Origin: Methanoregula boonei 6A8
GTDB taxonomy: Archaea; Halobacteriota; Methanomicrobia; Methanomicrobiales; Methanospirillaceae
NCBI RefSeq assembly: GCF_000017625.1
Contig: NC_009712.1
Location: forward strand, 1,798,001-1,862,000
Direction: 5' to 3'
Length of the DNA stretch: 64,000 bases
Positions 15,026 to 57,479 of the stretch are shown here, in pieces. The notes under the pieces are model-generated. The model made no database searches, was not told the DNA's origin, and saw only the letters and a program-made list of their open reading frames with translations. The position numbers were made by a program, and so were the translations under genes. How positions within the stretch are numbered: position 1 is the first letter of the stretch; each line of letters opens with the position of its first letter.

Positions 15026-16258
15026 ATGATCCAGAAACCACGAGGCACACGGGATTTCCTTCCCGATGAGATGGAAGCACGGCGCAGTATAGAGGCAAAG
15101 ATGCGTGAGGCAGTGCGCCGCTTCGGGTACCGGGAGGTCTGCACCCCCGAATTCGAGGAACTCGAACTTTTCACGCTCCGGTCGGGCGAGGGGATCATGC
15201 AGGAGATGTATGTCTTTGAGGACAAGGGTGGCCGCAAGCTTGCCCTGCGCCCGGAGATCACCGCTGCTGTGATCCGGATGTACATCAATGAGGCAAAGGT
15301 AGCGCCAAAACCGCTGCGCTGGTGCTACTTTGCGGACTGCTTCCGGTACGAGCGCCCGCAGAAAGGGAGGTACCGCCAGTTCTGGCAGTTTGGGGCCGAA
15401 CTGATCGGGGCCGACACCGCGCTTGCCGATGCGGAAGTGATCATGCTTGCTGCAGAGGCCCTCAACGCAACCGGCGTCACATGGGAACTTAAGGTAGGCC
15501 ATCTCGCGTTTATGAAAAATCTTCTCGCCGACCTTGACCCGGCAGCCCAGCGCCGGGTGATGGCGCATCTCGACAAGAAAGATTTCGAAGGGCTTGCAGA
15601 AACGCTGGCAGGGATGAGAAAATCCGGCTTGAACGACTCTCTTACAGCGCTCGTGGAGTGCCGCACGCTCGCGGAGGCTTTTGAGATCGCCGGGACTATT
15701 CCAGAAAAGGAGCGCGTGGAGCAAACGATGGGCATCCTCGATGCTTCCGGTGTCAGATATTCGCTTAACTTCGGGATTGCCCGGGGGCTGGACTACTACA
15801 CCGGCATGGTCTTTGAGGGGTTTGCAGAGAACCTCGGTGCCGAGAACCAGATCCTGGGCGGCGGGGCATACCGGCTCGCACACCTGTTCGGAGGGGACGA
15901 TGTTGCTTCCTGCGGGTTTGCTATCGGCTTTGACCGGGTGATGGTCTCCCTTGGAGAGGTGTTTGCTGCAAAAGATACCATTGCCGGGATTGTCTGCACG
16001 GATGAGGGCCGCAGCTTCGCGCTCTCGGTGGCCCGCGAATTCCGGGCCGCCGGGATCCGGGCGGAGATGGACCTTATGGGACGCGGGCTTGGGGCACAGC
16101 TTGCCCATGCGTCAAAGACTGCTGACTTTGCGGTCGTGATTGGCAAACGCGAGGCGGATGCCGGCCAGGTCACGCTCAAAAATCTTCATTCGGGCGAGCA
16201 GAAAACACTTGACCCGGCCGCGGCGATTGCCGAGGTGAAAGCGCATGGTGCTCGCTGA
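15026..16258 (+). CDS. hisS: Histidyl-tRNA synthetase
   Basis: 410 residues. Class II synthetase with RGTRDFLPDEM at the start, motif 2 FRYERPQKGRYRQFWQFG near 110-127, the histidine-specific GLDYYTGMVFEGF near 255, motif 3 CGFAIGFDRVM, and a C-terminal anticodon domain. It charges tRNA-His. The gene end overlaps the top6B start by 14 bases, so the two are coupled. An in-frame AGAGG sequence just before the ATG serves as ribosome-binding site. Confidence 0.97.
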   Translation: MIQKPRGTRDFLPDEMEARRSIEAKMREAVRRFGYREVCTPEFEELELFTLRSGEGIMQEMYVFEDKGGRKLALRPEITAAVIRMYINEAKVAPKPLRWCYFADCFRYERPQKGRYRQFWQFGAELIGADTALADAEVIMLAAEALNATGVTWELKVGHLAFMKNLLADLDPAAQRRVMAHLDKKDFEGLAETLAGMRKSGLNDSLTALVECRTLAEAFEIAGTIPEKERVEQTMGILDASGVRYSLNFGIARGLDYYTGMVFEGFAENLGAENQILGGGAYRLAHLFGGDDVASCGFAIGFDRVMVSLGEVFAAKDTIAGIVCTDEGRSFALSVAREFRAAGIRAEMDLMGRGLGAQLAHASKTADFAVVIGKREADAGQVTLKNLHSGEQKTLDPAAAIAEVKAHGAR

Positions 16259-18047
16259 GGAGCTTGCAAAGCAGCAGCGCAGCATCAGCGTAGCGGAATT
16301 TTTCGAGAAGAACAAGCACCTGCTGGGCTTTGACTCCCCTACCCGGGGCGTGATCACCACTATTAAAGAGGCAGTGGATAACGCCCTAGACGCCTGCGAG
16401 GAAGCGCAGGTGCTGCCCGATATCTACATCAGCATCAAAAAAACAGGCCCGGAGATTTTCCGGATCATTGTGGAGGACAACGGCCCCGGCATTGTCCCGG
16501 CGCAGGTCCCGTTCGTGTTCGGGAAGCTCCTGTACGGCTCCCGGTTCCACCAGATCCGGCAGACCCGGGGCCAGCAGGGGATTGGGATCTCGGCGGCGGT
16601 ACTCTATGCGCAGCTGACAAGCGGCCTGCCAACGGTTGTCATCTCACGCACCGGGGTAAAAGAACAGGCGCACAAATTCGGGATCCAGATAAAAATTGAG
16701 ACCAACGAACCCGATGTGATCTCCGAGCAGCCTTTTGAATGGGACCGGATCCACGGCACCCGGGTCCAGATCGAGTTCAAGAGTACGATGTCGGCCAAGA
16801 AGAAGCTGCTCGAATACCTCAGGTACACTTCGATCGTTAACCCCCATGCCCGGTTCCGGGTGGAGCTGGACGATGAGGCGTTCACGTTCGAGCGGGTGAG
16901 CCAGGAGGTGATCGCGTGCCCGGTGGCGATCCAGCCCCACCCGCACGGGATCGAGTTCGGGCAGCTCAAACGGATGGCCGCCGCAAGTGACGAGAAACTG
17001 ATCGACTTTCTCGTAAACGGCTTTTCCCGGGTGGGTAAGAAGACCGCGCAGGAGATGTGCGACCGCGCCGGCCTCAAAGTTACCGCAAAAGTGGCCGGCC
17101 TCTCTGCTGACGAACTCAAAAACCTGCTTGCCGCCATGCAGGCGGTGGCCGTGCCTGCCCCTCCAACCAGCCAGTGCCTGTCACCCATTGGTGAAGACTT
17201 AATCCGGCGCGGGCTTGACAAGGAATTCCAGATGGACTTTGTCGCGGCACGGACGCGGCCCAGTTCGGTCTACTCCGGCCACCCGTTTGTGGTCGAGGCA
17301 GCGATCGGATACGGCGGCCGGCTCGAAGCCGAAGGCAATGCAACGATCCTGCGCTTTGCAAACCGGGTCCCGCTCATGTACCAGCAGGGTGCCTGCGCAA
17401 TCACTGAATGCATTGCAAACGTCAACTGGAAATCGTACAACATCTCCCAGCAGGGCCTCCCCCTTGGGCCGGTGTTGATCCTCGTCCATGTCGCGTCCAC
17501 GAACGTGCCCTTCACAAGCGAGAGTAAGGACGCAATTGCAGACATCCCGGAGATCGAAAAGGAGATCGTGCTCGCGCTCCAGGATCTTGGCCGTGAGCTT
17601 AAGACATTCCTCTCGCGCAGGGACCGTAACAAGCTTGCCGAGGACCGGGCCCGGGCCGTCTGTGCAGTTATCCCCGAGATCGCGGCAAAAGTGAGCGAGA
17701 TCGTGGAAAAGCCGGTGGTCGACACGACCCCGATCGAGGGCCGGCTGATGCGCAAGCTGATTGCAAAGAAATGGACCCGGGACGGGAAGGTTACGATCGA
17801 AGCGAACAACTATACCGCAAGCGATGTCGAGATCTCGGTCTACGATATTTCCGCGGATAATGCTGCCGATGCCGATATGCCGCCCGCATTCTCGACCGAG
17901 ATGGACGGACAGTTCACGAAAGTCTGGAAGATGGCAATCCCCAAACAGACCGTGTGGCGCGTTACGTACACCGGCAAAGGCGGCGGCATGCTTGACATCC
18001 GCGGGATAGAGGACAACAAGAAGATGGTGGTGGATCTCGATGTCTAA
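16245..18047 (+). CDS. top6B: DNA topoisomerase VI subunit B
   Basis: 600 residues. GHKL ATPase with the N box VDNALDACEEAQ, VEDNGPGI, and the ATP lid RGQQGIGISAAVLYAQL near 110-125; a H2TH-type segment (NGFSRVGKKTAQEMCDRAG) in the middle; a transducer domain with the switch lysine region; and a C-terminal immunoglobulin-like end. The A2B2 enzyme relaxes supercoils and decatenates by double-strand passage. Overlaps hisS by 14 bases and top6A by 8 bases. Confidence 0.97.
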   Translation: MVLAEELAKQQRSISVAEFFEKNKHLLGFDSPTRGVITTIKEAVDNALDACEEAQVLPDIYISIKKTGPEIFRIIVEDNGPGIVPAQVPFVFGKLLYGSRFHQIRQTRGQQGIGISAAVLYAQLTSGLPTVVISRTGVKEQAHKFGIQIKIETNEPDVISEQPFEWDRIHGTRVQIEFKSTMSAKKKLLEYLRYTSIVNPHARFRVELDDEAFTFERVSQEVIACPVAIQPHPHGIEFGQLKRMAAASDEKLIDFLVNGFSRVGKKTAQEMCDRAGLKVTAKVAGLSADELKNLLAAMQAVAVPAPPTSQCLSPIGEDLIRRGLDKEFQMDFVAARTRPSSVYSGHPFVVEAAIGYGGRLEAEGNATILRFANRVPLMYQQGACAITECIANVNWKSYNISQQGLPLGPVLILVHVASTNVPFTSESKDAIADIPEIEKEIVLALQDLGRELKTFLSRRDRNKLAEDRARAVCAVIPEIAAKVSEIVEKPVVDTTPIEGRLMRKLIAKKWTRDGKVTIEANNYTASDVEISVYDISADNAADADMPPAFSTEMDGQFTKVWKMAIPKQTVWRVTYTGKGGGMLDIRGIEDNKKMVVDLDV

Positions 18048-19128
18048 AGAGGAACTCGATGCGCGGTCGATGAAGGCACTCATGACGATCGCGTCGGCCT
18101 GGTACGACCAGATGAAGGCCGGGGATATCCCATCCATCTCGCTTCCCACCCGTACAAAATACAACATCGAGTACGACGATGCAAGTGAGGTCTGGAAGTA
18201 CGGGGACAAGGAGAGCCTCCGGACCGCGGCAACCGCAAAGAGCGCGACACACCTTCTGAAAATGGCCTATGTGATCGGTTTTGTCAAGCAGCAGCTCATC
18301 GAGAACCGCTCCTCAACATTGAGAGAAATGTATTACATCTCTGAAGGCTGGAAGCGGGCGAAGTTTGGCGCGCAGGACGAGAGCAACTTCCTTGTAGAAG
18401 ACCTCGAGATCATCTCCGATGTGCCGCGCGAAGGTTTCCACCTCCGCCCCGAGGAAAATGGTGCAAGCATCTACGGCCCGATGCGGATCCGGGAGCCGAC
18501 CCGGCGGGGCTTAAAAATGATCCACTGCCAGGATGACGTAGGATCGGCCGGGTATTCCATCCCGAACAATGTTGAAAACCTCGAACTGGTGGATCACGAT
18601 GCGAAATTCGTCATCGCCATGGAAACAGGTGGTATGTACGACCGGCTGATCGAGAACGGGTTTGACGAGGAGCACAACGCGATCCTCCTCCATCTTAAGG
18701 GCCAGCCGGCCCGGTCAACACGCAGGCTGCTTAACCGGATAAGCCAGACCTGGAACCTGCCGATCCTTGTCTTTACCGATGGCGACCCATGGTCGTACCG
18801 GATCTATGCGTCGGTTGCGTACGGGGCTATCAAAAGCGCCCATATGTCCGAACTGCTGGCTACGCCGAAAGCGCAGTTCCTCGGGTTGCAGCCCAGCGAT
18901 ATCCGGGATTACAATCTGCCATCAGACAAACTATCTGACAAAGATGTCGAGGCCCTGAATGCCGAGCTGACCGATCCCCGGTTTGCAACAGATTACTGGA
19001 AGAAGCAGATCAATTTGCAGCTCGAACTGGGGCTGAAGTCAGAACAGCAGGCGTTTGCGGCCCGGGGGCTGGACTTTGTAACAAAAAAGTACCTGCCGGC
19101 CCGGTTATCTGAAATGGGCGTGATCTAG
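18040..19128 (+). CDS. top6A: DNA topoisomerase VI subunit A (Spo11-like)
   Basis: 362 residues. The winged-helix domain carries the catalytic tyrosine in LREMYYISEGW (Y98/Y99); the Toprim domain shows E195 in VIAMETGGMYDRL and D247/D249 in FTDGDPWSYRIY. Spo11-homologous subunit that cuts DNA. The next gene, a polysaccharide deacetylase, begins only 7 bases after its stop, so the surface-glycan operon reads straight on from a housekeeping operon. Confidence 0.97.
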   Translation: MSKEELDARSMKALMTIASAWYDQMKAGDIPSISLPTRTKYNIEYDDASEVWKYGDKESLRTAATAKSATHLLKMAYVIGFVKQQLIENRSSTLREMYYISEGWKRAKFGAQDESNFLVEDLEIISDVPREGFHLRPEENGASIYGPMRIREPTRRGLKMIHCQDDVGSAGYSIPNNVENLELVDHDAKFVIAMETGGMYDRLIENGFDEEHNAILLHLKGQPARSTRRLLNRISQTWNLPILVFTDGDPWSYRIYASVAYGAIKSAHMSELLATPKAQFLGLQPSDIRDYNLPSDKLSDKDVEALNAELTDPRFATDYWKKQINLQLELGLKSEQQAFAARGLDFVTKKYLPARLSEMGVI

Positions 19129-19135
19129 GAGTGCC

Positions 19136-20545
19136 ATGAGCATTGGTGTCTGCTACCCGGACAAGTATGCCGTTGAAGAAACCTTCCAGCTTCTCAAAGT
19201 ACCCTGGGAATGGTACGCGCCCGGCCGGCAGTACGATATTGTCATTTCCCGCAAAGCTGATGTGCCGGAATGGACCGGCAGTCTTGTTGATCTTACCGGC
19301 AACGATGTCTTCAGCAAAGTGGCCGGGCTGCTCAACACCGGCGCGGAACACCTGCACGAACCAACGTGCGATATCCTGCTCGATGCTCTCCGGCAGGAAC
19401 TCAAAAAACATACTCTGCTTGTGGAGATCCCGCCCACCCCGTGGGGACATCCCTACATGGTCGCGCTGACCCACGATGTGGATCTCACCTCAGTCCGGGA
19501 GTGCCGGTGGACTACCGTGGGATATGCAGCATACCAGTGCTTTACGCAGGGGAGCTGGTCAGCGGGATTACATCTCCTCCTTGCGCGCTGCGGATTTTGT
19601 TCCGATCCATGGGTGCTCTTTTCCCGCTGGAAAGAGTTTGAGGACTCTCTTGGGGTCCACTCTACCTTCTTTTTTGTCCCAAAACCGGGGAAGCCAGGCA
19701 TCAGGGCACACCCGTACCGGGCCATCAGTTATAATGTAACCCAGAAATCAGAAGTGCTGCGTGACCTGGAAAACGGCGGATGGGAGACCGGCGTCCACGG
19801 CCTTGACAACTGGGCTGATGCTGGTTCCGGCGAACAGGAGAGAGTATTTCTAGAGCCGGTGACGGCACATCCTGGCAACCGGACGCACTGGCTCCTCTTT
19901 GATACAAACAGCTGGAAATTTCTCGATGCTGCGGGATATGTATACGATACGACCTTCGGGTACAACGACGATGCCGGGTTCCGTGCCGGCACCCTGCAGG
20001 CATATCGGCCGCGCGATGTAAAAAATCTGCTGGAACTCCCGCTCCATATCCAGGATCTCGGGCTCTTTGGGAAATTCTGCTGGGCACCTACAGAGAACGG
20101 TTGGGAAAAAACACCGTGCCTGCATCTCGATGAACCAACGGCACGTGCGTGGTGCGACCGCATCTTTGCGTACGCACGTACTTATGGAGGAGCAGTAACG
20201 GTACTCTGGCACTACGAGAATCTTATGCCGCCCAAGGGCTGGTCCGGGTTTTACGCGGACATGGTCAGGCAGGCGAAGGTGGACGGGGCGTGGGTGACGA
20301 CAGCGGGGGAAGTGGCGAAGTGGTTCAGGAAACGGAGGGAGATCTACTTTACGGCGTTACAGTTCCAGAATGAAATTATTATTACTGCTGATGGAATTCT
20401 CCCGGAACAAGATACACACGCCCTACAAGCGCGAGTACATATCCCGCCGGATCAAATTGTATCGATAGACGCGGAGTATTCCCCAGCTTGTGGATATATT
20501 GACATAAAGATGGACAAACGGTGCATAACGGTGCGCATAGCATGA
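19136..20545 (+). CDS. Polysaccharide deacetylase family protein
   Basis: 469 residues. A NodB-like fold is suggested by the metal-binding strand VALTHDVDLTS near 105-115, the strand-loop HSTFFFVPK, ETGVHGLDNWADAG (the His metal ligand), and the GYVYDTTFGYNDDAGFRAGT loop near 275-295. The N-terminal ~100 residues are a separate unassigned domain. It would remove N-acyl groups from sugars in a glycan. Its TGA overlaps the ATG of the next gene (ATGA), coupling it to the acyltransferase, so deacylation and re-acylation may act on the same sugar. Confidence 0.75.
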   Translation: MSIGVCYPDKYAVEETFQLLKVPWEWYAPGRQYDIVISRKADVPEWTGSLVDLTGNDVFSKVAGLLNTGAEHLHEPTCDILLDALRQELKKHTLLVEIPPTPWGHPYMVALTHDVDLTSVRECRWTTVGYAAYQCFTQGSWSAGLHLLLARCGFCSDPWVLFSRWKEFEDSLGVHSTFFFVPKPGKPGIRAHPYRAISYNVTQKSEVLRDLENGGWETGVHGLDNWADAGSGEQERVFLEPVTAHPGNRTHWLLFDTNSWKFLDAAGYVYDTTFGYNDDAGFRAGTLQAYRPRDVKNLLELPLHIQDLGLFGKFCWAPTENGWEKTPCLHLDEPTARAWCDRIFAYARTYGGAVTVLWHYENLMPPKGWSGFYADMVRQAKVDGAWVTTAGEVAKWFRKRREIYFTALQFQNEIIITADGILPEQDTHALQARVHIPPDQIVSIDAEYSPACGYIDIKMDKRCITVRIA

Positions 20546-21261
20546 TCACAGAAAAAATATTTAAAAAGATTAAAAGTCCGCAGATTGCCAATTCCAGGAT
20601 TGCGCATTCGAAGATCATGCAGTTTTTTTTTAAGTATTCCCTGAAATCGTATAATTTTCTGGTCAGCCGGACTTCTTTTTTCCAGCATGGGCTTAACGGT
20701 TCCTGCGGGACAGGAAATAGTATTCATCCGACTGCGATCATCGAAAGAAAAAATGTAGTGATGGGAAATTTGTGCACGATCGGGAAAAACGTGATAATAG
20801 AAAAAAATACCATAATTGGCAACAACGTCACTATAGAAGAGGGAGCCGTGATTGGTTCGGAGGGTTTTGAATTCCGCAGAATTGCCGGAGAACTCGTGCC
20901 AATCGTCCATACAGGAGGTGTGATTATTCACGATAATGTGAGAATTGGCCGATCCGTCTGCATAGACAAAAGCTCTCTGGGTACCTATACCGAGATTGGT
21001 GATTCATCATATATTCATACCTGTACGCATATTGGACACGGTGTTAAGATCGGGCAGGGTACAACGCTTGCACAGGGTACGATGGTAGGGGGTTATGCGG
21101 ATATCGGGAGCCGGGTGCGGATTGGCAGGGACTCTTCACTGGCTGATGCAATAGCCCTCGAAGATGAGGTACGTGTACCTGATTGTACCATCGTAACCCG
21201 TTCCATAAAAAAGATAAGCGGTGATGAGATGAGAGGCGCCGATCACGATGGAATGGCCTGA
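20542..21261 (+). CDS. LpxD-like left-handed beta-helix acyltransferase
   Basis: 239 residues. Hexapeptide repeats from about residue 55 to 220 ([LIV]-G-x4 units such as VIGSEGFEF, VRIGRSVCIDK, HIGHGVKIGQG, YADIGSRVRIG). The pattern GSEGFEFRR...IVHTGGVIIHDNVRIG and HTCTHIGHGVKIG closely follows LpxD, including the catalytic-type His in the HIGHGVKIG turn. LpxD transfers a 3-hydroxyacyl chain from acyl-ACP to an amino sugar. The short N-terminus lacks the LpxD uridine-binding domain. The start ATG 20542 overlaps the deacetylase stop. Confidence 0.8.
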   Translation: MITEKIFKKIKSPQIANSRIAHSKIMQFFFKYSLKSYNFLVSRTSFFQHGLNGSCGTGNSIHPTAIIERKNVVMGNLCTIGKNVIIEKNTIIGNNVTIEEGAVIGSEGFEFRRIAGELVPIVHTGGVIIHDNVRIGRSVCIDKSSLGTYTEIGDSSYIHTCTHIGHGVKIGQGTTLAQGTMVGGYADIGSRVRIGRDSSLADAIALEDEVRVPDCTIVTRSIKKISGDEMRGADHDGMA

Positions 21262-21294
21262 CATTTGGGAAATCATGTGAAATGTGGGGTTGTG

Positions 21295-22164
21295 ATGGAG
21301 CTCGCAGATTACCAGTCAGACGATTGCACCCTAGTTCGTAACGGCGGATTTGAATCACTTGGGTCCGTTTTTACGCATTATCCCCAGCAACTGGTGTTTG
21401 CCCTGCGGGAACAGGATATTGACAAGATCCAGCACAATCCTTCTGTATCCTGCGTAATCACCACGGATACGCTCGTCCCAAAAGTTCCCGGATATCCCGG
21501 TCTTATCTCTGCAGACAATCCAAAGGAAATATTCTATGAAATCCATGCGTCATTGTCCCGGCAGACAGGAGGCGCCTTTGAACGGTTGGAGAATACGATT
21601 CATTCATCCTCAACCATACATCCGAGTGCAACCATTGCTTCCCGCGGTGTCCGTATCGGGAGGAACGTGGAGATCGGAAAAAATGTCGTGATCCATGAAC
21701 AGACCATTATTGACGATGGAGTTATTATCCGTTCCGGGAGTGTGGTTGGAAATACCTGCACGCTGAAGGGAAAACAGGATTGTATTGATATGCATCCCTC
21801 CGGGGGTGTCCATATCCACCGTGACGTTGACATCCACGCAAATACGATCATTGACCGGGCGGTCTTCAAAGGATACACCGTAATTGGCCGGCAGACCAAG
21901 GTGGACAACCTGGTACACATCGGCCCCGGGGTGAGGATTGGGGAGAGATGCCTTGTCGTTGCGTGTGCAAATATTGGCGACTGTGTTGTTATAGGGAACG
22001 ACAGTTGGATCGGACCAAATTCCACGCTTGCCGAACAGATCCTGATCGGGAACCAGGCATACATCACCCTTGGCTCCCATGTATCCCGTGATGTCGGAGA
22101 TAATATGCTGGTAAAAGACAAGTATGTAATTGACCGGCAGCGATTCAAAAAAGTGATACGGTAA
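21295..22164 (+). CDS. LpxD-like acyltransferase with an N-terminal nucleotide-sugar domain
   Basis: 289 residues from ATG 21295. Residues 1-95 resemble the LpxD uridine-binding domain (SCVITTDTL...YPGLISADNPKEIFYEIHA). Residues 100-280 are hexapeptide repeats (ATIASRGVRIGRNVEIGKNV, HIGPGVRIGERCLVV, IGNDSWIGPNSTLAEQ). It is a paralogue of the preceding gene, and the two may acylate different positions or act as a hetero-oligomer. Archaea have no lipid A, so the acceptor must be another amino sugar. In-frame TTG and GTG codons lie a little upstream, so the start is uncertain by up to 30 bases. Confidence 0.8.
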   Translation: MELADYQSDDCTLVRNGGFESLGSVFTHYPQQLVFALREQDIDKIQHNPSVSCVITTDTLVPKVPGYPGLISADNPKEIFYEIHASLSRQTGGAFERLENTIHSSSTIHPSATIASRGVRIGRNVEIGKNVVIHEQTIIDDGVIIRSGSVVGNTCTLKGKQDCIDMHPSGGVHIHRDVDIHANTIIDRAVFKGYTVIGRQTKVDNLVHIGPGVRIGERCLVVACANIGDCVVIGNDSWIGPNSTLAEQILIGNQAYITLGSHVSRDVGDNMLVKDKYVIDRQRFKKVIR

Positions 22165-22268
22165 CCATTTCGCATGGATGCATGCAGATTATGCAATTCA
22201 TGGGGGCCGGAATCGATAACTATCTTTACCGGTTGCAGGGAGCCACCGGTCAGATACTGGAGAATCTC

Positions 22269-22637
22269 ATGCAGGACATTGGCATAGGCACAGACATAGA
22301 AGAGATCCGCCGGTTCGAAAATTTTCGTGACCGGGCAGTTGCAGCATTTCTCGAAAAGAATTTCACACGAGAGGAGAGGGAGTACTGCCTGTCAAAAGAT
22401 GCACCGGCACCGCATCTTGCTGCACGGTTCGCAGGCAAAGAAGCCATAATAAAAGCGATCTCCAGCCTGAACATCCCCCGTATTTTCTATCCCGATATCG
22501 AAATACTCAACAATGAGCGGGGCGTTCCCTGCGTCAGGATTAATACCGAACACTGCGAAAAATTGTGTATAAAACTTAGTTTGTCGCACAGTTCAGGTAT
22601 GGCGCTGGCGTTTTGTATTATTATTCGAGAGGTCTGA
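22269..22637 (+). CDS. acpS: Holo-[acyl-carrier-protein] synthase
   Basis: 122 residues. AcpS-type phosphopantetheinyl transferase: IGIGTDIEEIRRF (Mg-binding Asp), then RFAGKEAIIKAIS (the conserved F-[AS]-x-K-E-A) and SLSHSSGMALAF near the end. It moves 4'-phosphopantetheine from CoA to the serine of the ACP. The ACP starts 1 base after its stop. The frame is open back to 22182, but the AcpS fold begins at this ATG. Confidence 0.92.
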   Translation: MQDIGIGTDIEEIRRFENFRDRAVAAFLEKNFTREEREYCLSKDAPAPHLAARFAGKEAIIKAISSLNIPRIFYPDIEILNNERGVPCVRINTEHCEKLCIKLSLSHSSGMALAFCIIIREV

Positions 22638-22638
22638 C

Positions 22639-22878
22639 ATGGCATCCTTTAATGAGAATGCGATAAAAAATATTTTTTGTGAAGTCCTTGGAATCCCGGC
22701 AGATGAGGTAACAGATACGCTCGCGTATAACTCCTGCGCGCAATGGGATTCCCTCAAACATCTCCAGCTGGTGGCCATGTTCGAAGAAAAATTTGAAATT
22801 GAGATCGATATGGATGATATCATCGCGATGGAAAATTACGGGAAGATCAAGGAAATTCTCCACAAGTATCTCACGTAG
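22639..22878 (+). CDS. Acyl carrier protein
   Basis: 79 residues, acidic and helical, with the phosphopantetheine attachment site WDSLKHL (Ser38). It matches stand-alone ACPs in length, and the flanking acpS supplies its maturation enzyme. Archaea generally lack fatty acid synthase ACPs, so this is a specialised carrier, probably handling an acyl chain for the ligase, LuxE/LuxC or acyltransferase genes in the same operon. Confidence 0.93.
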   Translation: MASFNENAIKNIFCEVLGIPADEVTDTLAYNSCAQWDSLKHLQLVAMFEEKFEIEIDMDDIIAMENYGKIKEILHKYLT

Positions 22879-22884
22879 CCGGTT

Positions 22885-24378
22885 ATGAATTTCGTCGATT
22901 ACCTCTTTGAACATGTTCCGGACCCCCAAAAGGAGTGCATCCTGTCCCGCGGAGGCACCCTTACCTACCGGGATCTTATCTCACAGGTTGACGGTCTTGC
23001 AGGTTACCTCGCGGGCATTTTAGGCACGGGGAAAGAATGCCTATTACTCTCTGAAAACATCCCTTTTTTTGTCATCGCTTATCTTGCCATTATAAAGAGC
23101 GGGAATACGGCCCTGCTTGTTGAGACACAGATTGCGGACAAACAACTGGTCTCCCTCTTTCATGAATGCCATATCGGGGCGGTATTGGTCCAGAAAAAAT
23201 ACCTGGCAAAGATCCCGGACCACGTTACTGCCATTACAGAGGATATCCTCCCGGTTCTCACTTCGGTAAAAAAGTACGAAAGTTCTGCGGTCAATGATGA
23301 TGATGTTGCCGTTGTTATCTTTACTTCCGGAAGTACTGGCGCAAAGAAAGGGGTCATGCTGACGCACCGGAACCTGCGTGCCAACACCGGATCAATCGTG
23401 GAGTATCTGGGCCTCACCCCGGACGACCGGATCTGCGCCACTCTACCGTTCTTTTACTGTTACGGGGCATCCCTGTTGCACACGCATCTCAGGGCCGGGG
23501 GGAGCATAGTCCTTTCCAACAACATTTTTCTCGGAGGCGCTCTCCGGGATATCAAGACCTTCTCCTGCACCGGTTTTGCCGGTGTTCCCAGTACCTACCA
23601 GATTCTGGTAACAAAAACCCCCTTTCTCAGGGAAGAACTCCCGTCCCTCCGGTATATGCAACAGGCCGGCGGGCAGCTGCCAAACAAGTACATCCGGCAG
23701 ATCGCAGAGGCATTCCCGGAGAAACAATTCTTCGTGATGTACGGGGCAACGGAAGCCACGGCACGGATGTCGTACCTCCCACCGGCACTGGTGCTTACAA
23801 AACTTGGCTCTGTCGGAAAGGGCATCCCCGGGGTTACTCTCGAAGTGCTCAACGAGAAAGGAGATCCGGTAAAACCCGGAGAAGCCGGTGAGATCATTGC
23901 ACGCGGCGACAATATCATGAAGGGGTATTATGGGGATCCTGAAGAGACACAGAGCGTTATAAAAGACCACAGGCTCTTTACCGGGGATATTGCAACAGTG
24001 GATGAAGACGGGTATATTTTTATTGTCGGTCGGGCAAAGAACATCATTAAATCCGGCGGGTACCGTATCTCTCCAAACGAGATAGAGGAGTTTATCTGCT
24101 CCCTTGATAACGTCGCCGGTTGTGTGGTGCTGGGCCTGCCGGACGAGATTATGGGAGAGGCCGTTGTGGCCGTGGTCCAGCCGGGGGATATCCCGGAAGC
24201 GTCACTCAGGGAAGAGATCCTCACGCAATGCAGGCAGCATCTGCCATCATATAAGGTCCCACGATCACTATACTTCGTAAAGGAGTTCCCGCTCAATGCT
24301 TCCAATAAAGTGGACAGGCAGGTCATTGCTGCATCCCTGCGTTCTGGGCTGAAGGAGAAAGGGGTGCATGAGAAATGA
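22885..24378 (+). CDS. Acyl-AMP ligase (ANL superfamily)
   Basis: 497 residues. Adenylate-forming enzyme with A3 IFTSGSTGAKKGVMLTHRNL near 145-165, A5 YGATEATARMS, the A7 loop FTGDIATVDEDGYIFIVGRAKN, A8 SGGYRISPNEIE and the A10 lysine in LNASNKVDRQ. It activates a carboxylic acid as acyl-AMP and passes it to a thiol. The adjacent ACP is the likely acceptor, although CoA cannot be excluded. It ends 4 bases into the LuxE gene (ATGA). Confidence 0.88.
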   Translation: MNFVDYLFEHVPDPQKECILSRGGTLTYRDLISQVDGLAGYLAGILGTGKECLLLSENIPFFVIAYLAIIKSGNTALLVETQIADKQLVSLFHECHIGAVLVQKKYLAKIPDHVTAITEDILPVLTSVKKYESSAVNDDDVAVVIFTSGSTGAKKGVMLTHRNLRANTGSIVEYLGLTPDDRICATLPFFYCYGASLLHTHLRAGGSIVLSNNIFLGGALRDIKTFSCTGFAGVPSTYQILVTKTPFLREELPSLRYMQQAGGQLPNKYIRQIAEAFPEKQFFVMYGATEATARMSYLPPALVLTKLGSVGKGIPGVTLEVLNEKGDPVKPGEAGEIIARGDNIMKGYYGDPEETQSVIKDHRLFTGDIATVDEDGYIFIVGRAKNIIKSGGYRISPNEIEEFICSLDNVAGCVVLGLPDEIMGEAVVAVVQPGDIPEASLREEILTQCRQHLPSYKVPRSLYFVKEFPLNASNKVDRQVIAASLRSGLKEKGVHEK

Positions 24379-25505
24379 CGACGACCGCCCGGGCCGGGGC
24401 ACAGGAGACTAACGAGAGAGAGGTCCTCCTCACACTTGACCCGTACAGCCTTGACGACCGGGAGAAAAATAAACGACTCATGCCTATTATTCGGGAACAG
24501 CTGAAAGGTGCCCGTGGCAATAACCGGCATATAGAACATTATTTTTCAAAGCTGCAGATTGATATCGATACCCTTCTGCAACCGGAAGATGTACCGTTTA
24601 TCCCGGTCCAGATGTTCAAGCACTTCGATCTCAGGACCTGCCCGGAAAATGCCGTCGCAAAAATCCTCCAGTCCAGCGGGACTACCGGCGGTACTCCCAG
24701 CAGAATTCCGCTGGATAAATTAACCACCTTAAACCAGATAAAGGCCCTCAAGGCAATTCTCTCCGATTATCTCGGAAAAAACAGGAAGATCTTCCTCGTT
24801 ATCGATCATGAAGGGATCAATAAACCGGAGATGGCTTTTTCCGCACGCACCGCCGGGGTCCGGGGCCTGAGCATCTATGCGAAAAAAACATTTTACCTGC
24901 TTAAGGAAGAAGATGGGCACCTTTCCCTGAACCTGCCGGTCATCCGGGATATTATGGAGAATTATTCGCATGAAGAGATGTACGCGTTCGGATTCACGTA
25001 CATTATCTGGACGGTCTTTTACGAACAGCTCAAAAAAGAGGGGATCCGGTTCTCTTTTGACAGGATCACGCTGTTCCATGGGGGCGGATGGAAAAAAATG
25101 AAAGATCTCGCAGTCTCTAAAGAGACTTTTTCCGGGACAATCGCCGGGGTCTTTGGCACCGGAGTGGAAAACATCCTCGATTTTTATGGGATGGCTGAAC
25201 AGACCGGCATAATATTTGTTGATTGTAAATGTGGTAACAAACACGTGCCGGCATTCTCTCAGGTCATTATCCGGGATCCGTTCACACTGGAACCTTGCGC
25301 TCCCGGGAAGCCCGGTCTTATCGAGGTAATGAGTATCCTTGCCGACAGTTACTACGATCAGGCTGTGCTGACCGAGGATCTTGGCATGCTTGTTGGCGTG
25401 GATGACTGTCCGTGTGGAAGAAAGGGAAGATATTTCCGTTTTGTCTCACGGGTGGAAAAAGCCGAGATACGCGGATGCGGGGATACTTTCCGGGAGTCTG
25501 GCTGA
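24375..25505 (+). CDS. LuxE-family acyl-protein synthetase
   Basis: 376 residues. Hallmarks of LuxE: PFIPVQMFKHFDL, SSGTTGGTPSRIPLDK, TLFHGGGWKKMK, VFGTGVENILDFYGMAEQ and a C-terminal Cys-rich VDCKCGNKH. LuxE activates a fatty acid to acyl-AMP and hands it to a cysteine of LuxC. It has the full usual length. The neighbouring LuxC-like gene starts 1 base after its stop, reproducing the order of bacterial acyl-reductase complexes (luxC/luxE) in a sugar-modification setting. Substrate chain length is unknown. Confidence 0.85.
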   Translation: MTTTARAGAQETNEREVLLTLDPYSLDDREKNKRLMPIIREQLKGARGNNRHIEHYFSKLQIDIDTLLQPEDVPFIPVQMFKHFDLRTCPENAVAKILQSSGTTGGTPSRIPLDKLTTLNQIKALKAILSDYLGKNRKIFLVIDHEGINKPEMAFSARTAGVRGLSIYAKKTFYLLKEEDGHLSLNLPVIRDIMENYSHEEMYAFGFTYIIWTVFYEQLKKEGIRFSFDRITLFHGGGWKKMKDLAVSKETFSGTIAGVFGTGVENILDFYGMAEQTGIIFVDCKCGNKHVPAFSQVIIRDPFTLEPCAPGKPGLIEVMSILADSYYDQAVLTEDLGMLVGVDDCPCGRKGRYFRFVSRVEKAEIRGCGDTFRESG

Positions 25506-25506
25506 T

Positions 25507-26799
25507 ATGATCACCTGTTACCTGGTAAACGGGAAGTTCGAAACTTGTACTTGTCAGGATTTCGAAGATATAGCGGGTAGCGTCAATTCCGGGAGGATTA
25601 ATCTTGCCGCGATGCCACTCGAAGGTATCATAAGAATCCTTGATGCGCTGGGAAAAAAGATCCTGAAAAATCCTGAGGTAAATTCCGTGCCCGGTGTCAG
25701 TTACATCTCGCTCTGGTTGCGCCGTGAAAATCTCGACCGTATCTGCCAGGTCAACTATACTGACAACCGGTTCGCGGATCGGTTCTGCCAGCAGGCCGGT
25801 TCCCATTCCCGGATGATGGCACAACCCCGGGGGATTGTCTGCCACTGGATCGCAGCAAATATGCCGACACTGGGATTCTTCTCCATTGTCCAGGCGTTCC
25901 TCTCCAAAAACGGCAGCATGGCAAAAATTCCAAAAGAATATGTGCCGCTGATCCTCTCGCTCCTCCGCGAATTGCAGGGTATCATAGTAGAGGTGGAAAA
26001 CACAAAATGCACCGGCGAAACCCTTCTTAAAGCGATCGCTATTGTGGTCTTTGAAGGGAGATCCGCAGACATTAGCGAAAAATTTTCCCGTTCTGCCGAT
26101 TGCCGCATCGTCTTTGGGGGGAGTGAAGCAATCCACGCTATTACCCGCCTGCCCTGTCGGGACCACTGCGAGACCATTGTCTTTGGGCCGAAATACTCCT
26201 TTGCGGCATTTGACCGGGAATACACAGAATCGGAGGGCTTCAAAAAATCCCTTGACCTTTTCGCCCGTGACATCGCTGTCTTTAACCAGATGGCCTGTTC
26301 TTCGCCCCATGTCCTGTTCCTGGAGAAAAGCAGGTTCTCTATGGAAACGATTGCGGCACTGCTTGCAGAAGCTTTCGAGCGCCTGCCACCTGCATTGCGT
26401 CTCCAGAATATACCTGTCAGCCTTTCAGCAAAAATTATCAATGAACGGGCGATCTACCGCCTTGCAGAGGATAAAAACTGCGTAGCCCCTGCCGATCTGG
26501 GCTGGACAATTCTCATTGGCGGGAGGCCCGGCCTTGAAGAACCTGTCCAGGGAAAATGCATCTTTATAAAAGAGGTGAAAGCATTGGACGATGTCATCCC
26601 CCAGGTGAATCACAAGATCCAGGCAATCGCTATCGGAATTTCTGACCCGGAGAAGAGAAAGGTATTTGCGCAGCAGGTCACTGCACGCGGTGCAGACCGC
26701 ATTGTAATCCCCGGGACAATGCATGATTTTATCCTGCCATGGGACGGGATTATGACCCTGAACCGGCTGGTCAGATGGGTTGTACTGAGAGATGCGTGA
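25507..26799 (+). CDS. LuxC-family acyl-CoA/acyl-protein reductase
   Basis: 430 residues from ATG 25507. The fold of LuxC-type NADPH-dependent reductases is suggested by the N-terminal cap, the substrate segment FGGSEAIHAI and the R-D-H-C-E-T-I-V-F-G-P-K-Y-S-F-A pattern near 215-235, and FNQMACSSPHVLFLE, the nucleophile-region cysteine (C in MACSSP). It reduces an acyl thioester to an aldehyde. Upstream extension to 25381 overlaps LuxE and was not used. With LuxE it forms a fatty aldehyde pathway. Confidence 0.85.
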   Translation: MITCYLVNGKFETCTCQDFEDIAGSVNSGRINLAAMPLEGIIRILDALGKKILKNPEVNSVPGVSYISLWLRRENLDRICQVNYTDNRFADRFCQQAGSHSRMMAQPRGIVCHWIAANMPTLGFFSIVQAFLSKNGSMAKIPKEYVPLILSLLRELQGIIVEVENTKCTGETLLKAIAIVVFEGRSADISEKFSRSADCRIVFGGSEAIHAITRLPCRDHCETIVFGPKYSFAAFDREYTESEGFKKSLDLFARDIAVFNQMACSSPHVLFLEKSRFSMETIAALLAEAFERLPPALRLQNIPVSLSAKIINERAIYRLAEDKNCVAPADLGWTILIGGRPGLEEPVQGKCIFIKEVKALDDVIPQVNHKIQAIAIGISDPEKRKVFAQQVTARGADRIVIPGTMHDFILPWDGIMTLNRLVRWVVLRDA

Positions 26800-26812
26800 T
26801 GAGGTGATCCTT

Positions 26813-27553
26813 ATGCTTAACGGTAAAGTGATACTTGTTACCGGCGCAAGCCGGGGAATAGGACGGGCCACAGCCTTTCTTGCTGCAAAAAACCACGCGC
26901 AGGTTATTGTGAATTATCAGAAACACGCAGATCAGGCAGAATCCCTGGTCAGTGAAATAACTGCTCTTGGTCATTCTGCCATGGCAATCCGTGCCGATGT
27001 GACCTGTGAAGAGGAGGTCAAAGAGATGTTCCGGCAGATCCGGGAACAGTACGGGCGCCTTGATATCCTGGTAAACAATGCGGGCATCATGAAGAACAAT
27101 CTCCTGATGATGACAAAAATCCAGGAATACCAGGACGTGATGGACGTAAACTGCAAGGGAACGTTCCTGTGCACCCAGCATGCGGCAAAAATAATGGTAC
27201 GACAAAAGGCCGGAACGATTATCAACCTTGCTTCTGTCGTCGGGGTTTATGGGAACAGGGGCCAGTCAGCATATGCCTCCAGCAAATCTTTTGTAATCGG
27301 GTTTACCAAATGCGCTGCTAAAGAGCTGGGGGCGTTCAATATCACGGTCAATGCCGTTGCACCGGGATTTATCGATACGGACCTGACTGCAGATACCAGA
27401 TCTCAGGTAAAAGAGGATATCCTTAAAAATATTGCACTCGGCCGAATCGGGACACCTGATGATGTGGCTAAGGTAATCGTATTTCTTGGATCGGATCTCG
27501 CCGGGTATGTCAGCGGGCAGGTAATCGGGGTGGACGGCTGCGAGATTATGTAA
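26813..27553 (+). CDS. FabG-like short-chain dehydrogenase/reductase
   Basis: 246 residues. SDR fold with the cofactor motif VTGASRGIG near 8-16, NNAG near 85, the catalytic Ser/Tyr/Lys set in LASVVGVYGNRGQSAYASSKSF (S140 region, Y and K) and the PGFIDTDLT segment. FabG-type enzymes reduce 3-oxoacyl-ACP with NADPH. The ATG at 26813 follows a good Shine-Dalgarno sequence (GAGGTGAT), favouring it over the ATG at 26792, which overlaps the LuxC stop region. It closes the ACP operon; no ketosynthase is present. Confidence 0.88.
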   Translation: MLNGKVILVTGASRGIGRATAFLAAKNHAQVIVNYQKHADQAESLVSEITALGHSAMAIRADVTCEEEVKEMFRQIREQYGRLDILVNNAGIMKNNLLMMTKIQEYQDVMDVNCKGTFLCTQHAAKIMVRQKAGTIINLASVVGVYGNRGQSAYASSKSFVIGFTKCAAKELGAFNITVNAVAPGFIDTDLTADTRSQVKEDILKNIALGRIGTPDDVAKVIVFLGSDLAGYVSGQVIGVDGCEIM

Positions 27554-27653
27554 ACACCAGGTACCGGCACATTGGAATTAGAGTGAGTGAAAGTGGGATC
27601 CCGGATCTCCTAAAAAAAAGTAAATGCCTTTATTTCGACTAAGGTAACGCAAA

Positions 27654-28919
27654 ATGGATGAAAATTTATTGACTACAATACCAGATCGACTTTTTGCCGA
27701 TCTCAAGGATAAAACACTTCTTGTTATCACGCCGGATTTTCCTGATAGGGATCACCACTATATTGGTTCAATTTTTGTGAAAAACCAGATTGAACCACTA
27801 AAAAAAATTTTCAGACAAATTATTGTCATCTGCCCGGTCCTGTTCAGTTTCCGGCTGCTGCCCAATGACCGGTACTGCAAAAATTACACATACGGGAATG
27901 TCCGGGTCTTTTACCCGCGCTGTTTCTTTCTTCCCCGCAGCCTTCCGCTTCCGTTTGTAAGCAATAAACAAAAAATGTCATTTGATTTCCGGTATTCTGC
28001 AGTGAGACAGATTATCCGGAAAGAAAACACGCAGTTTGATCTTATCCATGCCCATTTCACCTGGCCCTCCGCAGCAATTGCCGCGCAGATCAGGGAAGAG
28101 TTCCATGTCCCAGTTGTTACAACAATCCATGAGGATTCAGGGTGGCTTGAGGAAGAGATCCGTATGGAGCAGCCACTCCTCGTCAGGGCATGGAGAGAAT
28201 GCGACAGGTTAATCAGAGTAAATAAGAAAGACGTCCCACTCCTCCTCCGCTACAATACCCGGATTATCTCGATTCCCAATGGCTTTGGGCCGGAATTTCA
28301 TCCGATGGACAAGCAGGAGTCACGGCGCGTCCTTTGTATTCCGGCGGAGAATAAGATTGTTTTCAGTCTCGCTCCCCTGATCGAGCGCAAGGGTTTTTCC
28401 TATCTTATCGATGCCATGGAACAGGTGATAAAAAAAGATCCTTCGACCCTCTGTTATATCGGGGGTGAAGGCCCGGAAAAGAAGAACCTTACAGAAAAGA
28501 TTCGGAAAAAGGGGCTGCAAAAAAATATTTTTCTTCTCGGGTTTGTCCCGGACAAACAGGTTGTCCGCTGGATGAACAGTGCAGATCTCTTTGTCCTGCC
28601 AAGCCTCAAGGAAGGAAATCCGACCGTCATGTTTGAATGCCTCGGATGCGGGACCCCGTTTATCGGGACGGATGCCGGGGGGATCCCGGAAATAATTCAG
28701 TCGGACGATTACGGGTACGTATGTGAACCTGCAAATCCGCAAGCCCTGGCACAGGTCCTTACCGCGGCCCTGGGAAGAGCATGGGACCGTGAACGGATCT
28801 CTCAATACGCACAACAATTCAGCTGGGAAGCAATCGGACGCGAATTGAACGAGGTGTACAGACAGTTAATTGAATCATTTCCCGCAGATCTTTATGAATT
28901 TAAGGCAGATAAACCCTGA
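27654..28919 (+). CDS. GT4 family glycosyltransferase
   Basis: 421 residues. GT-B fold: N-terminal half with VITPDFPDRD and a H-x-H-F-x-W-P acceptor segment (LIHAHFTWPS), C-terminal half with SLAPLIERKGFSYLIDA and LPSLKEGNPTVMFECLGCGTPFIG, the EX7E-type donor site of GT4 enzymes. It is cytoplasmic and adds a sugar from a nucleotide donor to a growing glycan. A TATA-like TTTATTT lies upstream, so it is a separate transcription unit from the ACP operon. Confidence 0.88.
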   Translation: MDENLLTTIPDRLFADLKDKTLLVITPDFPDRDHHYIGSIFVKNQIEPLKKIFRQIIVICPVLFSFRLLPNDRYCKNYTYGNVRVFYPRCFFLPRSLPLPFVSNKQKMSFDFRYSAVRQIIRKENTQFDLIHAHFTWPSAAIAAQIREEFHVPVVTTIHEDSGWLEEEIRMEQPLLVRAWRECDRLIRVNKKDVPLLLRYNTRIISIPNGFGPEFHPMDKQESRRVLCIPAENKIVFSLAPLIERKGFSYLIDAMEQVIKKDPSTLCYIGGEGPEKKNLTEKIRKKGLQKNIFLLGFVPDKQVVRWMNSADLFVLPSLKEGNPTVMFECLGCGTPFIGTDAGGIPEIIQSDDYGYVCEPANPQALAQVLTAALGRAWDRERISQYAQQFSWEAIGRELNEVYRQLIESFPADLYEFKADKP

Positions 28920-36764: not shown

Positions 36765-37886
36765 TCATAATTTCTTAATAATGTTCAATAAATAGCCGAT
36801 AAAAACTTTAGCAGTCACATACGGGATTATAAGTATCATTAACGGATCTTTATTTCGATTATAGAAATTACGTAATATTTTAATAATGTTTTTAAATTTT
36901 TCTTCATAGGGGAGGGATTTTATTATTTCATCGAGAGATAAAATATCTGGTTTTAATACTTGATTATACTTATTTCGGGCGTTTTCCACCCCACATTCCA
37001 AGGTCATTTTAATGCAGTTAAAAATGTACTGATCTTCGGATTTAGTGATTTCAATTATATGTTCGGTTGATTGCCCCCAGTAACTCAAATCATAACTTAC
37101 CGATGCAAATGAAAAACCCAGAGATCTGGTGTTCAAAATTTGTATTGTGGGTATTTTTTTTGCCCATTCTGAAGTTAATAACCAGGTTATGCCACTTGAA
37201 CAACCGATTAATAAATTGCAATATTTCGATAATTCTGCATTTTCTCTAAAAGTTATTTCAGAAGCATCAATAATTCGATTATGACCGGTATTTATTTTTT
37301 GATTACTCGTCAGCAAAATTACACAATCTTCAAATCCATCCACAATTTTTCTGGATAATTCCAGGGCAAAATTCACATTAACCGGCGATTGTTTACTTTG
37401 GGGGGAGCACTCAAAGAGGATCACCTTGTCAAATTCCTGCAGATTATATCGCATCGCGAAAATTCTAACGTTTTCAATCTCTTTTTCGGTCAGACATATT
37501 ATAGGGGATACCGGGACAGTTATTGGATTTGGATAGTTACGGAATGTGGATGAGCGGATAGTTCCATCATAATTGGATAAATTATCCGGGATTATTTGGG
37601 TAAAAAATATAATATCATATAAGCCTTTTTCTTTTCTTGCCAGGGCCTCCTTTTTGGTTTGCTCCCATACAAATCCAAAATTATCTCTCATCTTTTCAGA
37701 AAAAATTTCCCAGATTTCATCGATGTACGGATTATGCAGGATAACCGGTGAGCAACGATCGCTGATAGCCCATGTCAGATGGCAACCAGGATAATCCTGT
37801 TTTATCTGTCGGGCTAATGCGGTAACAAAGAGACAGTCCCCCATTGATACCAGATGTACTAATAATATCCTTATTTGTTGTTTCAT
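36765..37886 (-). CDS. GT9-like glycosyltransferase
   Basis: 373 residues from ATG 37886. The start IRILLVHLVSMGDCLFVTALARQIKQ resembles the heptosyltransferase (GT9) N-terminus, where GD-x-L is followed by T-A-L, and TWAISDRCSPVILHNPYIDEIWE is the usual early segment. The region is very A+T rich compared with the flanking operons, pointing to transfer from another lineage. The ATG overlaps the stop of the epimerase gene (ATGA). A glycan sugar transferase is likely; the sugar is not predictable. Confidence 0.7.
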   Translation of the reverse strand: MKQQIRILLVHLVSMGDCLFVTALARQIKQDYPGCHLTWAISDRCSPVILHNPYIDEIWEIFSEKMRDNFGFVWEQTKKEALARKEKGLYDIIFFTQIIPDNLSNYDGTIRSSTFRNYPNPITVPVSPIICLTEKEIENVRIFAMRYNLQEFDKVILFECSPQSKQSPVNVNFALELSRKIVDGFEDCVILLTSNQKINTGHNRIIDASEITFRENAELSKYCNLLIGCSSGITWLLTSEWAKKIPTIQILNTRSLGFSFASVSYDLSYWGQSTEHIIEITKSEDQYIFNCIKMTLECGVENARNKYNQVLKPDILSLDEIIKSLPYEEKFKNIIKILRNFYNRNKDPLMILIIPYVTAKVFIGYLLNIIKKL

Positions 37887-38752
37887 TTCAGCATCAGTGT
37901 GCATAAATCCTCAAAAGAAGTCCGGGGCAGCCACCCTAACGAATGAATAGTCGATGGATCGGAAACCAGGATTTTATACTCTGGTAAAAATGATTCCTTT
38001 AAAACTACATATTCCGCCCAATCTTTATTGATAGTATTAAAACAAATTTCCAGCCAATCCTGGATAGAATACGCTTTTCCAGTCCCGATACATGCTTCAA
38101 ATATTTTGTCCTGACTTATCAGTGTAAACATTCCTTCCGCAATATCTCCCGCAAATGCCCATTCTTTTCTGACCGACACATCACCAAGTGTAATTTTCTC
38201 GCTGCTGCCTTGCACAATCCGTTTAACCGCCATGGCAATCATCTGGCTTACATGGGTTGGCTTCCGAAGCGGGCTTTCATGGTGGAATAAATAACCCACA
38301 TACACTTTTAACCCCAACCTCCGGAAATATCGCGCAGCATATACAGATTGTATGCGGGCAATTGAGTATGGACTGGTCGCTTCAAATTCATCTGTTTCTT
38401 TTACAGGCAAGCCATTATTTTTAAACTGTATACCGCTGCCGGCAAGAAAAACACGGCTCTTCGGACTGTGGCGCCTGACAGATTCCAGAATATTTAAGGT
38501 ACCTGTTGAAATAGTTTCATGGTTTTCGAAAAGTGCATCGTGCCGGGTAGAGGAATTTGCAGCTAAATGAAAGATATAGTCCGGCTGTTCTTTTTTTATG
38601 AGATTTTCGACAAAATTAAAATCACTTACGTTACCTTGTACCCAATTGCCGGGTGACCTTGATACTCCAATGACGTGTATTTTCTTTCTCACGCAGAGTT
38701 GGTTCAAATAGAACCCATCCTGACCATTGGCGCCGAATATAAATGCTTTCAA
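37883..38752 (-). CDS. NAD-dependent epimerase/dehydratase, GMD-like
   Basis: 289 residues. Rossmann start FIFGANGQDGFYLNQLC, then FHLAANSSTRHDA, FLAGSGIQF and a SPYSIARIQSVYAAR catalytic region resembling GDP-mannose 4,6-dehydratase relatives. The expected T-D-E-x-Y triad order is only partly visible, so the exact reaction is unknown. It works on a nucleotide sugar for the same glycan. It overlaps both neighbours by 4 bases. Confidence 0.75.
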   Translation of the reverse strand: MKAFIFGANGQDGFYLNQLCVRKKIHVIGVSRSPGNWVQGNVSDFNFVENLIKKEQPDYIFHLAANSSTRHDALFENHETISTGTLNILESVRRHSPKSRVFLAGSGIQFKNNGLPVKETDEFEATSPYSIARIQSVYAARYFRRLGLKVYVGYLFHHESPLRKPTHVSQMIAMAVKRIVQGSSEKITLGDVSVRKEWAFAGDIAEGMFTLISQDKIFEACIGTGKAYSIQDWLEICFNTINKDWAEYVVLKESFLPEYKILVSDPSTIHSLGWLPRTSFEDLCTLMLK

Positions 38753-57193: not shown

Positions 57194-57438
57194 CCGGTAA
57201 TCCGGCCCCGGGGTGTTGTGGAATAAACCCGCTCCGAATGGATGATCTCCTGAGCATACCTGATGCATGCAAGGATGTCTTCACGGGAAAGATCCGGGTA
57301 TTCCTGAAGTACTTCGGACTCACTCCATCCCGAGGCCAGGAGATCCAGGATGTGATCTACAGAGATCCGTGTACCTTTTATCACCGGTTTGCCGGCCAGG
57401 ATGGATGGATCAAGGATAATCCGGGATGCAGTGTCCAT
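57190..57438 (-). CDS. DUF433 antitoxin
   Basis: 82 residues. RIILDPSILAGKPVIKGTRI, then VDHILDLLASGWSESEVLQEYPDL, is the DUF433 winged-helix-like DNA-binding fold. It precedes and overlaps the DUF5615 gene on the same strand, as an antitoxin gene does. It probably represses its own promoter. Confidence 0.87.
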   Translation of the reverse strand: MDTASRIILDPSILAGKPVIKGTRISVDHILDLLASGWSESEVLQEYPDLSREDILACIRYAQEIIHSERVYSTTPRGRITG

Positions 57439-57479
57439 GGAAAACCATGGTGTCCCGGAAATAATATACTTATTCTGCC

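Follow-up and report, generated by a model that had tools for sequence, protein, structure and literature searches.

To our knowledge, the general view is that archaea manage without acyl carrier protein (ACP). The question is then what role is played in Methanoregula boonei by an operon that encodes, in this order, the LpxD-like proteins HexA and HexB, holo-ACP synthase (AcpS), a stand-alone ACP, an AMP-forming acyl ligase, LuxE- and LuxC-family proteins and a FabG-like short-chain dehydrogenase/reductase (SDR). The operon lies in a stretch of 64,000 nucleotides (the window) of a complete genome of one contig and 2,542,943 bases. Ten co-directional genes, from a deacetylase to a GT4 glycosyltransferase, occupy positions 19136-28919 of the + strand directly after Top6B and Top6A, with intergenic gaps of -4 to +13 bp except for ~104 bp before acpS and 100 bp before GT4. 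An earlier reading of the letters alone (the ‘sequence-only reading’) had described the eight gene types in the order given here; the operon and all eight types are confirmed, as is their tight spacing apart from the gap before acpS. Our answer, for and against which we see about equal weight, is that the operon may produce an acyl group, short and probably hydroxylated, with which the amino group of a nucleotide sugar or of a glycan precursor would then be acylated.

A carrier protein with its own synthase

AcpS gives the sole PF01648 match and ACP the sole PF00550 match in the genome; AcpS scores above the TIGR00516 cut-off (59.8 bits; Table 1) and contains the IGxD and FxxKEAxxK motifs. Among Methanomicrobiales, AcpS is encoded in all 14 genomes with the module versus 32 of the 218 without it (Fisher 2e-11; these are related genomes and hence not independent). 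The acpS gene is located in or beside the operon in 13 of 13 Methanomicrobiales loci, in Methanomassiliicoccus (locus L049) and in a nanohaloarchaeon (L052), as compared with only one of ~76 bacterial loci. Bacteria possess a housekeeping AcpS. The pattern of linked AcpS is the best evidence we have for holo-ACP as the working form of the carrier, and the ACP-dependent acyl activation by a dedicated AcpS that the sequence-only reading proposed gains support from the sole detected phosphopantetheinyl transferase and sole ACP of this genome. The same reading held that no ketosynthase is present, and indeed no convincing one was found genome-wide (a single match covers 42 residues with 22.5 bits); for this reason, an ACP-dependent fatty acid synthase (FAS II) was rejected. 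The ligase exhibits the A3 and A5 motifs, and its best NCBIfam match, below cut-off, is the exosortase-associated ligase TIGR03098 (315.6 bits).

LuxE of the kind found in the window occurs in 14 of 232 Methanomicrobiales genomes. Loci taken from these genomes contain acpS-acp-ligase-luxE-luxC as a contiguous block in every case (13/13), and since the same block recurs in 13 loci other than the window, the gene set is not a product of chance.

The acyl-accepting Cys368 of LuxE is conserved, the catalytic Cys264 of LuxC is invariant (n = 14), and the catalytic S/Y/K residues of the SDR are in place. Both Lux proteins miss the NCBIfam long-chain equivalog cut-offs by far (79.6 of 550 for LuxE and 71.9 of 750 for LuxC). 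Orthologs of the window SDR (SDR-A type; 56-63% identical) follow in 8 of the 14 Methanomicrobiales loci, none of which has a transketolase; in the remaining six a split transketolase is encoded, accompanied in four by another SDR (35-41% identical) and in two by no SDR at all. Loci L043 and L044, in which ACP, ligase, LuxE and LuxC are 94-97% identical, differ in exactly the slot after luxC, where one has genes for an SDR and transketolase and the other the gene for a window-type SDR. Because SDR-A and split transketolase thus replace each other after luxC, the SDR probably handles the aldehyde formed by LuxC, and the simplest reading is that reduction and two-carbon extension would be two alternative fates of this aldehyde. 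For the action on 3-oxoacyl-ACP that the sequence-only reading had assigned to the SDR we find no support: it is disfavoured by this mutual exclusivity together with the lack of a convincing ketosynthase. In a Lokiarchaeote (L055), LuxE forms a fusion protein with an iron-containing alcohol dehydrogenase (Fe-ADH), and in L052 with LuxC; Fe-ADH was rejected as a general third alternative, being fused or nearby in only three loci. In L041 (11799-16009), an insertion of ~3.4 kb splits the window-type SDR gene of a second module copy in genome G197.

HexA, which forms the ACYLTRANSFERASE pair with HexB, retains the catalytic His of LpxD in 5 of 5 relatives, whereas the residue at this position in HexB is P, Q, Q, Q or A and in none of five a His. 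The two are fused in L033 (452 amino acids), and HexB is probably a non-catalytic partner of HexA. Hence, of the two LpxD-like acyltransferases seen in the sequence-only reading, HexA stands and HexB, devoid of the catalytic His, does not. HexA shares the β-helix and catalytic His with LpxD; however, the N-terminal LpxD domain PF04613 is matched by neither HexA nor HexB, and the LpxD equivalog cut-off is not reached. We know of no archaeon that makes lipid A. HexA is found in 6 of the 232 genomes, five times with the module nearby (Fisher 2e-6); the stretch retrieved around the sixth copy ends with it. In Methanomassiliicoccus (L049) a true LpxD-like gene, encoding both catalytic His and LpxD domain, abuts acpS, so that the window, L049 and L052 represent three archaeal lineages with an operonic hexapeptide acyltransferase.

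Rml and other glycosyltransferase genes follow 3' of GT4 and, further on, genes for Wzm/Wzt-type transport and nucleotide-sugar formation; the neighbours matched by Pfam are rml, glycosyltransferase, Wzm/Wzt and epimerase genes, with no search having been aimed at pse genes. Within this glycan cluster, the earlier proposal of acyl transfer to an amino sugar is tentatively supported. The G+C content of the deacetylase gene (55%) resembles that of the backbone, and that of the genes after it is 42-53%. Large frames in the glycan region that Pfam leaves unmatched are located at 46543-48189 (- strand), 36768-37904 (- strand) and 57160-57882 (+ strand).

Table 1. Genes of the operon, with positions in the window. 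Favoured start codons are ATG 22269 (AcpS), ATG 21295 (HexB), ATG 25507 (LuxC) and ATG 26813 (SDR).
Feature	Positions	Strand	Basis
VimE-like (NodB superfamily) deacetylase	19136..20545	+	NCBIfam VimE 39.5 bits, E 2.5e-10
HexA, LpxD-like left-handed beta-helix acyltransferase	20542..21261	+	LpxD subfamily model E 1.8e-34; PDB LpxD matches
HexB, LpxD-like beta-helix without catalytic His	21295..22164	+	Longest frame from TTG 21265; ATG by ortholog alignment
AcpS, holo-ACP synthase	22269..22637	+	PF01648 57.5 bits; TIGR00516 63.3 bits
Stand-alone ACP	22639..22878	+	PF00550 37.2 bits; Ser of DSL is residue 37
AMP-forming acyl ligase, candidate acyl-ACP synthetase	22885..24378	+	PF00501 231 bits
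LuxE-family acyl-protein synthetase	24375..25505	+	PF04443 194.6 bits; PDB 7xc6 LuxE E 9.8e-23
LuxC-family acyl reductase	25507..26799	+	PF05893 206 bits; PDB 7xc6 LuxC E 8.9e-10
FabG-like SDR (SDR-A type)	26813..27553	+	PF13561 214.8 bits
GT4 glycosyltransferase, downstream bookend of cassette	27654..28919	+	PF00534 129 bits

Deacetylase, glycosyltransferase and the slot between them

The deacetylase preceding hexA matches the NCBIfam model of VimE, a UDP-GlcNAc3NAcA deacetylase, as do all of its orthologs (15/15), yet far under the cut-off (39.5 versus 440 bits for the window protein). The motifs THDVD and LWH359 as well as H221 are invariant. A PDB search with the deacetylase profile gave no match, comparison of the profile with a true polysaccharide deacetylase gave a weak one (55.7%), and a structure predicted from the single sequence was discarded (pLDDT 35). 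A PF01522 deacetylase is encoded in L036, and one of the same type (78% identical) in L035; only these two loci carry it, a gene of L033 considered for the same type having been rejected since NCBIfam identifies a glycosyltransferase.

Orthologs of the deacetylase often adjoin Top6A. Because of this linkage, and because they are mostly found without the module, the deacetylase is considered an older Top6A-linked neighbour that does not belong to the transferred unit. Several families of Methanomicrobiales share the order Top6B-Top6A-deacetylase (16245-20545 in the window), even though no functional relationship between the proteins is apparent.

Inspection of ten module-less deacetylase loci revealed an ATP-grasp ligase (60-87% mutual identity) in eight, along with a PHP phosphatase where scanned; of the other two, one encodes a divergent ATP-grasp protein plus a methyltransferase and one a FemAB/GNAT protein. 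In six of the ten, the next gene encodes a GT4 glycosyltransferase whose best match in the window is the GT4 at 27654 (184-236 bits). The deacetylase-ATP-grasp-PHP-GT4 cassette of other Methanomicrobiales thus has the same bookends as the window operon, but would form an amide by means of an ATP-grasp ligase where the window has the ACP module. As judged from these gene orders, the contents between deacetylase and GT4 appear to be interchangeable and to include an enzyme class capable of amide formation in all cases. The cassette of L160-L169 is itself a candidate unit for N-glyceryl (or other amide) exchange on N-glycan sugars.

Work by Kelly in 2022 reportedly described an N-glycan of Methanoculleus marisnigri JR1 with a 3-N-glyceryl amino sugar. 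We propose acyl exchange here because such a glycan would fit deacetylation followed by formation of a new amide. The acyl exchange on a surface glycan suggested in the sequence-only reading receives indirect support from the interchangeable amide-forming cassettes; a correction to that reading is that the deacetylase lies outside the transferred unit.

Proposed route and competing explanations

Gene content and order, catalytic residues, conservation and linkage are direct observations; we infer the reaction steps, their order, the acid and the acceptor from protein family and gene context. AcpS would first convert apo-ACP to holo-ACP. LuxE may then adenylate the carboxylate of a small acid and hand the thioester to LuxC, which would reduce it to the aldehyde; the FabG-like SDR would reduce the aldehyde to the alcohol, while in relatives the split transketolase together with another SDR might extend it. 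The resulting acid, plausibly a C4 hydroxy acid, would be loaded onto holo-ACP by the AMP ligase, and HexA, with HexB as structural partner, would transfer the acyl group from ACP to the amino group exposed by the VimE-like deacetylase. Finally, GT4 would use the modified sugar.

The step order, with LuxEC acting before ACP loading, is the weakest point of this proposal: 13 of 93 loci encode a type II thioesterase in the vicinity of ligase and LuxE, which would also be compatible with the reverse flow from ACP via the free acid to the aldehyde. Several further observations likewise weigh against acylation of an amino sugar by the route given. The operon encodes no aminotransferase for amino-sugar formation, whereas a DegT gene is adjacent in related loci; Pfam leaves the deacetylase unmatched, its similarity to VimE is distant, and of the 23 genomes with a strong ortholog of it just four contain the module; the FabG-like SDR family as a whole is promiscuous; and most bacterial loci have no hexapeptide transferase nearby.

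That the aldehyde is the end product might be thought in view of the thioesterase and of the split transketolase, which is encoded in 6 of 13 loci of Methanomicrobiales and in ~30 of the 79 others. Ligase and ACP would then prepare the acid, the SDR would act on the ACP-bound intermediate, and LuxEC would release an aldehyde which is condensed with sugar precursors, in relatives by the transketolase, or joined to an amine to yield a branched or N-alkyl sugar. We consider this rather unlikely for the window, since its locus contains neither transketolase nor thioesterase, the acyltransferase is linked to the module, and L055 encodes a LuxE-alcohol dehydrogenase fusion. In lux operons, LuxD precedes LuxE, and an aldehyde product would be in keeping with this order. 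The thioesterase is found in gut Firmicutes (for example at 9300-9992 of L065, and in 12 more loci), and its placement recalls that of LuxD.

A distinctly unlikely alternative is that two unrelated units adjoin here, in which deacetylase, HexA and HexB would use acetyl-CoA on one sugar while the ACP-LuxEC module serves another glycan. The deacetylase without module in most genomes, the 104-bp gap between hexB and acpS, and the opposite orientation of hexA/hexB in L040 would be expected from such an arrangement, but HexA is almost only found with and next to the module, and it is acpS that the LpxD-like gene abuts in Methanomassiliicoccus. Finally, it is very doubtful that a longer fatty acyl chain is bound to ACP, reduced by FabG at the 3-oxo position and transferred onto an amino sugar as in lipid A, with a side route via LuxEC to fatty aldehyde: the resemblance to LpxD and FabG and the ‘liposugar’ suggestion made for Aeromonas and Enterobacteriaceae (PMC7874193, PMC4875605) are outweighed by the genome-wide lack of a convincing ketosynthase, the SDR-transketolase swap, the low long-chain equivalog scores of LuxE and LuxC, and the C4 tetronate product of the parallel pathway of Vibrio cholerae.

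Origin, known parallels and implications

The sequence-only reading described the gene set as an archaeal module, but it is no archaeal speciality: the module is a laterally acquired glycan-island unit that is widespread in bacteria and has been described in flagellin glycosylation islands. Across 393 genomes of the phylum, strong LuxE matches are confined to Methanomicrobiales, with two weak exceptions (149 and 155 bits), whereas a scan of species genomes yielded at least 500 relatives of LuxE that are mostly bacterial (Lachnospiraceae, Bacteroidales, Enterobacteriaceae and Planctomycetes). In 79 other, mainly bacterial loci, ligase (75), LuxC (72) and ACP (66) are encoded near LuxE. In a tree, most archaeal sequences form one clade with Methanomassiliicoccus (100/100), while L039, L043 and L044 belong to a second clade beside a planctomycete; since both clades are located inside bacterial diversity, at least two acquisitions from bacteria are likely. 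The nanohaloarchaeal locus L052 has the order DegT, ACP, ligase, fused LuxE-LuxC, SDR, hexapeptide acyltransferase and AcpS.

Several bacterial loci deserve mention in their own right. In Clostridium (L051, 12447-15990) the core module has genes for a sigma-54 activator and an HpaB-family protein as neighbours, with similar-sized genes in L053 and L056. The HpaB-family gene, which we take to be possibly 4-hydroxybutyryl-CoA dehydratase-like in anaerobes, is a hint at C4 acid substrates. Rhizobium anhuiense T24 carries the module on a large plasmid of this clover symbiont (L129; NZ_CP098804, 182-203 kb), with genes for split transketolase, acyl-ACP-UDP-GlcNAc acyltransferase, an ACP-sized protein, ligase, DegT, LuxE, LuxC, SDR and FabZ; LuxE matches akin to that of L129 are present on ten Rhizobium plasmids. 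L045 (genome G196) and L128 (Salmonella plasmid CP053580, 62-68 kb) were rejected as members, as they represent a different LuxE/LuxC-PaaK system: L045 encodes, besides LuxE, a fusion of LuxC with a PaaK-like AMP-binding domain, with MFS and HATPase/GNAT genes nearby, and L128 an AMP-binding protein plus PaaK along with LuxE.

The kind of module is already known from bacterial flagellin islands and from V. cholerae O1, and the archaeal version is an unusual variant of it, for which no paper was found in the literature searched. Its archaeal features are the linked dedicated AcpS, the LpxD-like pair, the exchangeable slot and the setting. Group II flagellin islands of Aeromonas (98 strains) comprise ACP, 3-oxoacyl-ACP reductase, AMP-dependent synthetase, LuxE and LuxC (PMC7874193), and the same five functions recur in flagellin glycosylation islands of Enterobacteriaceae (PMC4875605); a ‘liposugar’ has been suggested as product by the authors of both. 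All five have a counterpart in the window operon. The islands, however, are found in a bacterial flagellin context with pse genes and no AcpS is named for them; the archaeal locus has a deacetylase and an LpxD-like pair. The flagellin glycan of Aeromonas AH-3, of the type that matches islands with the module, contains an unexplained moiety of 102 Da (PMC7874193). As a prediction, and not as evidence, we suggest that this moiety is a dihydroxybutyryl residue (C4H6O3, 102.03 Da).

The order of functions in the tetronate pathway of V. cholerae O1 was reportedly set out by Morona in 1995. The pathway comprises the carrier RfbK, the ligase RfbL, an Fe-ADH, RfbN as fused LuxE-LuxC, and an acetyltransferase (PMC4772473, PMC9201469, PMC12208996); tetronate synthesis is predicted to depend on WbeL/RfbL, and O1 antigen is lost when this ligase is deleted (PMC3441752). 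When compared by description, not by sequence, carrier, AMP ligase, LuxE plus LuxC, dehydrogenase and acyltransferase are common to both systems, the window operon having carrier and ligase adjacent. In V. cholerae the acyltransferase belongs to a cluster for surface polysaccharide and serves an amino sugar, as HexA may do here. The product there is the C4 acid tetronate (2,4-dihydroxybutyryl). In the window, however, LuxE and LuxC are separate, an SDR is found in place of the Fe-ADH, which is absent from the operon, and the LpxD-like pair, with HexA as its acyltransferase, takes the place of the acetyltransferase; the operon has its own AcpS and contains neither perosamine genes nor DegT. Published descriptions and the fused LuxE-LuxC of L052 suggest homology to RfbN, and the loci L052, L055 and L049 link the archaeal and V. 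cholerae architectures. The LuxC-LuxE fatty acid reductase (PDB 7xc6) shares fold families, acyl-accepting and catalytic Cys residues and gene adjacency with the window proteins, which are distant in sequence and whose operon lacks luciferase and LuxD.

It is tempting, if still tentative, to consider the operon as a self-contained system for ACP-dependent N-acylation of sugars in archaea without an ACP fatty acid synthase, equipped with its own AcpS, acquired at least twice from bacteria and inserted into an interchangeable slot between deacetylase and GT4, the transketolase variant of which would supply longer hydroxyacyl groups new to glycans. With the sole detected ACP and phosphopantetheinyl transferase encoded in one glycan operon, the cargo of an archaeal ACP becomes directly testable. 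If true, the proposal would also provide a mechanism for an enigmatic module of hundreds of bacteria, for which the labels ‘fatty acid synthesis’ and ‘liposugar’ have been used in flagellin islands and which may turn out to be a hydroxyacyl-group factory whose LuxEC aldehyde is either reduced by the SDR or extended by the transketolase.

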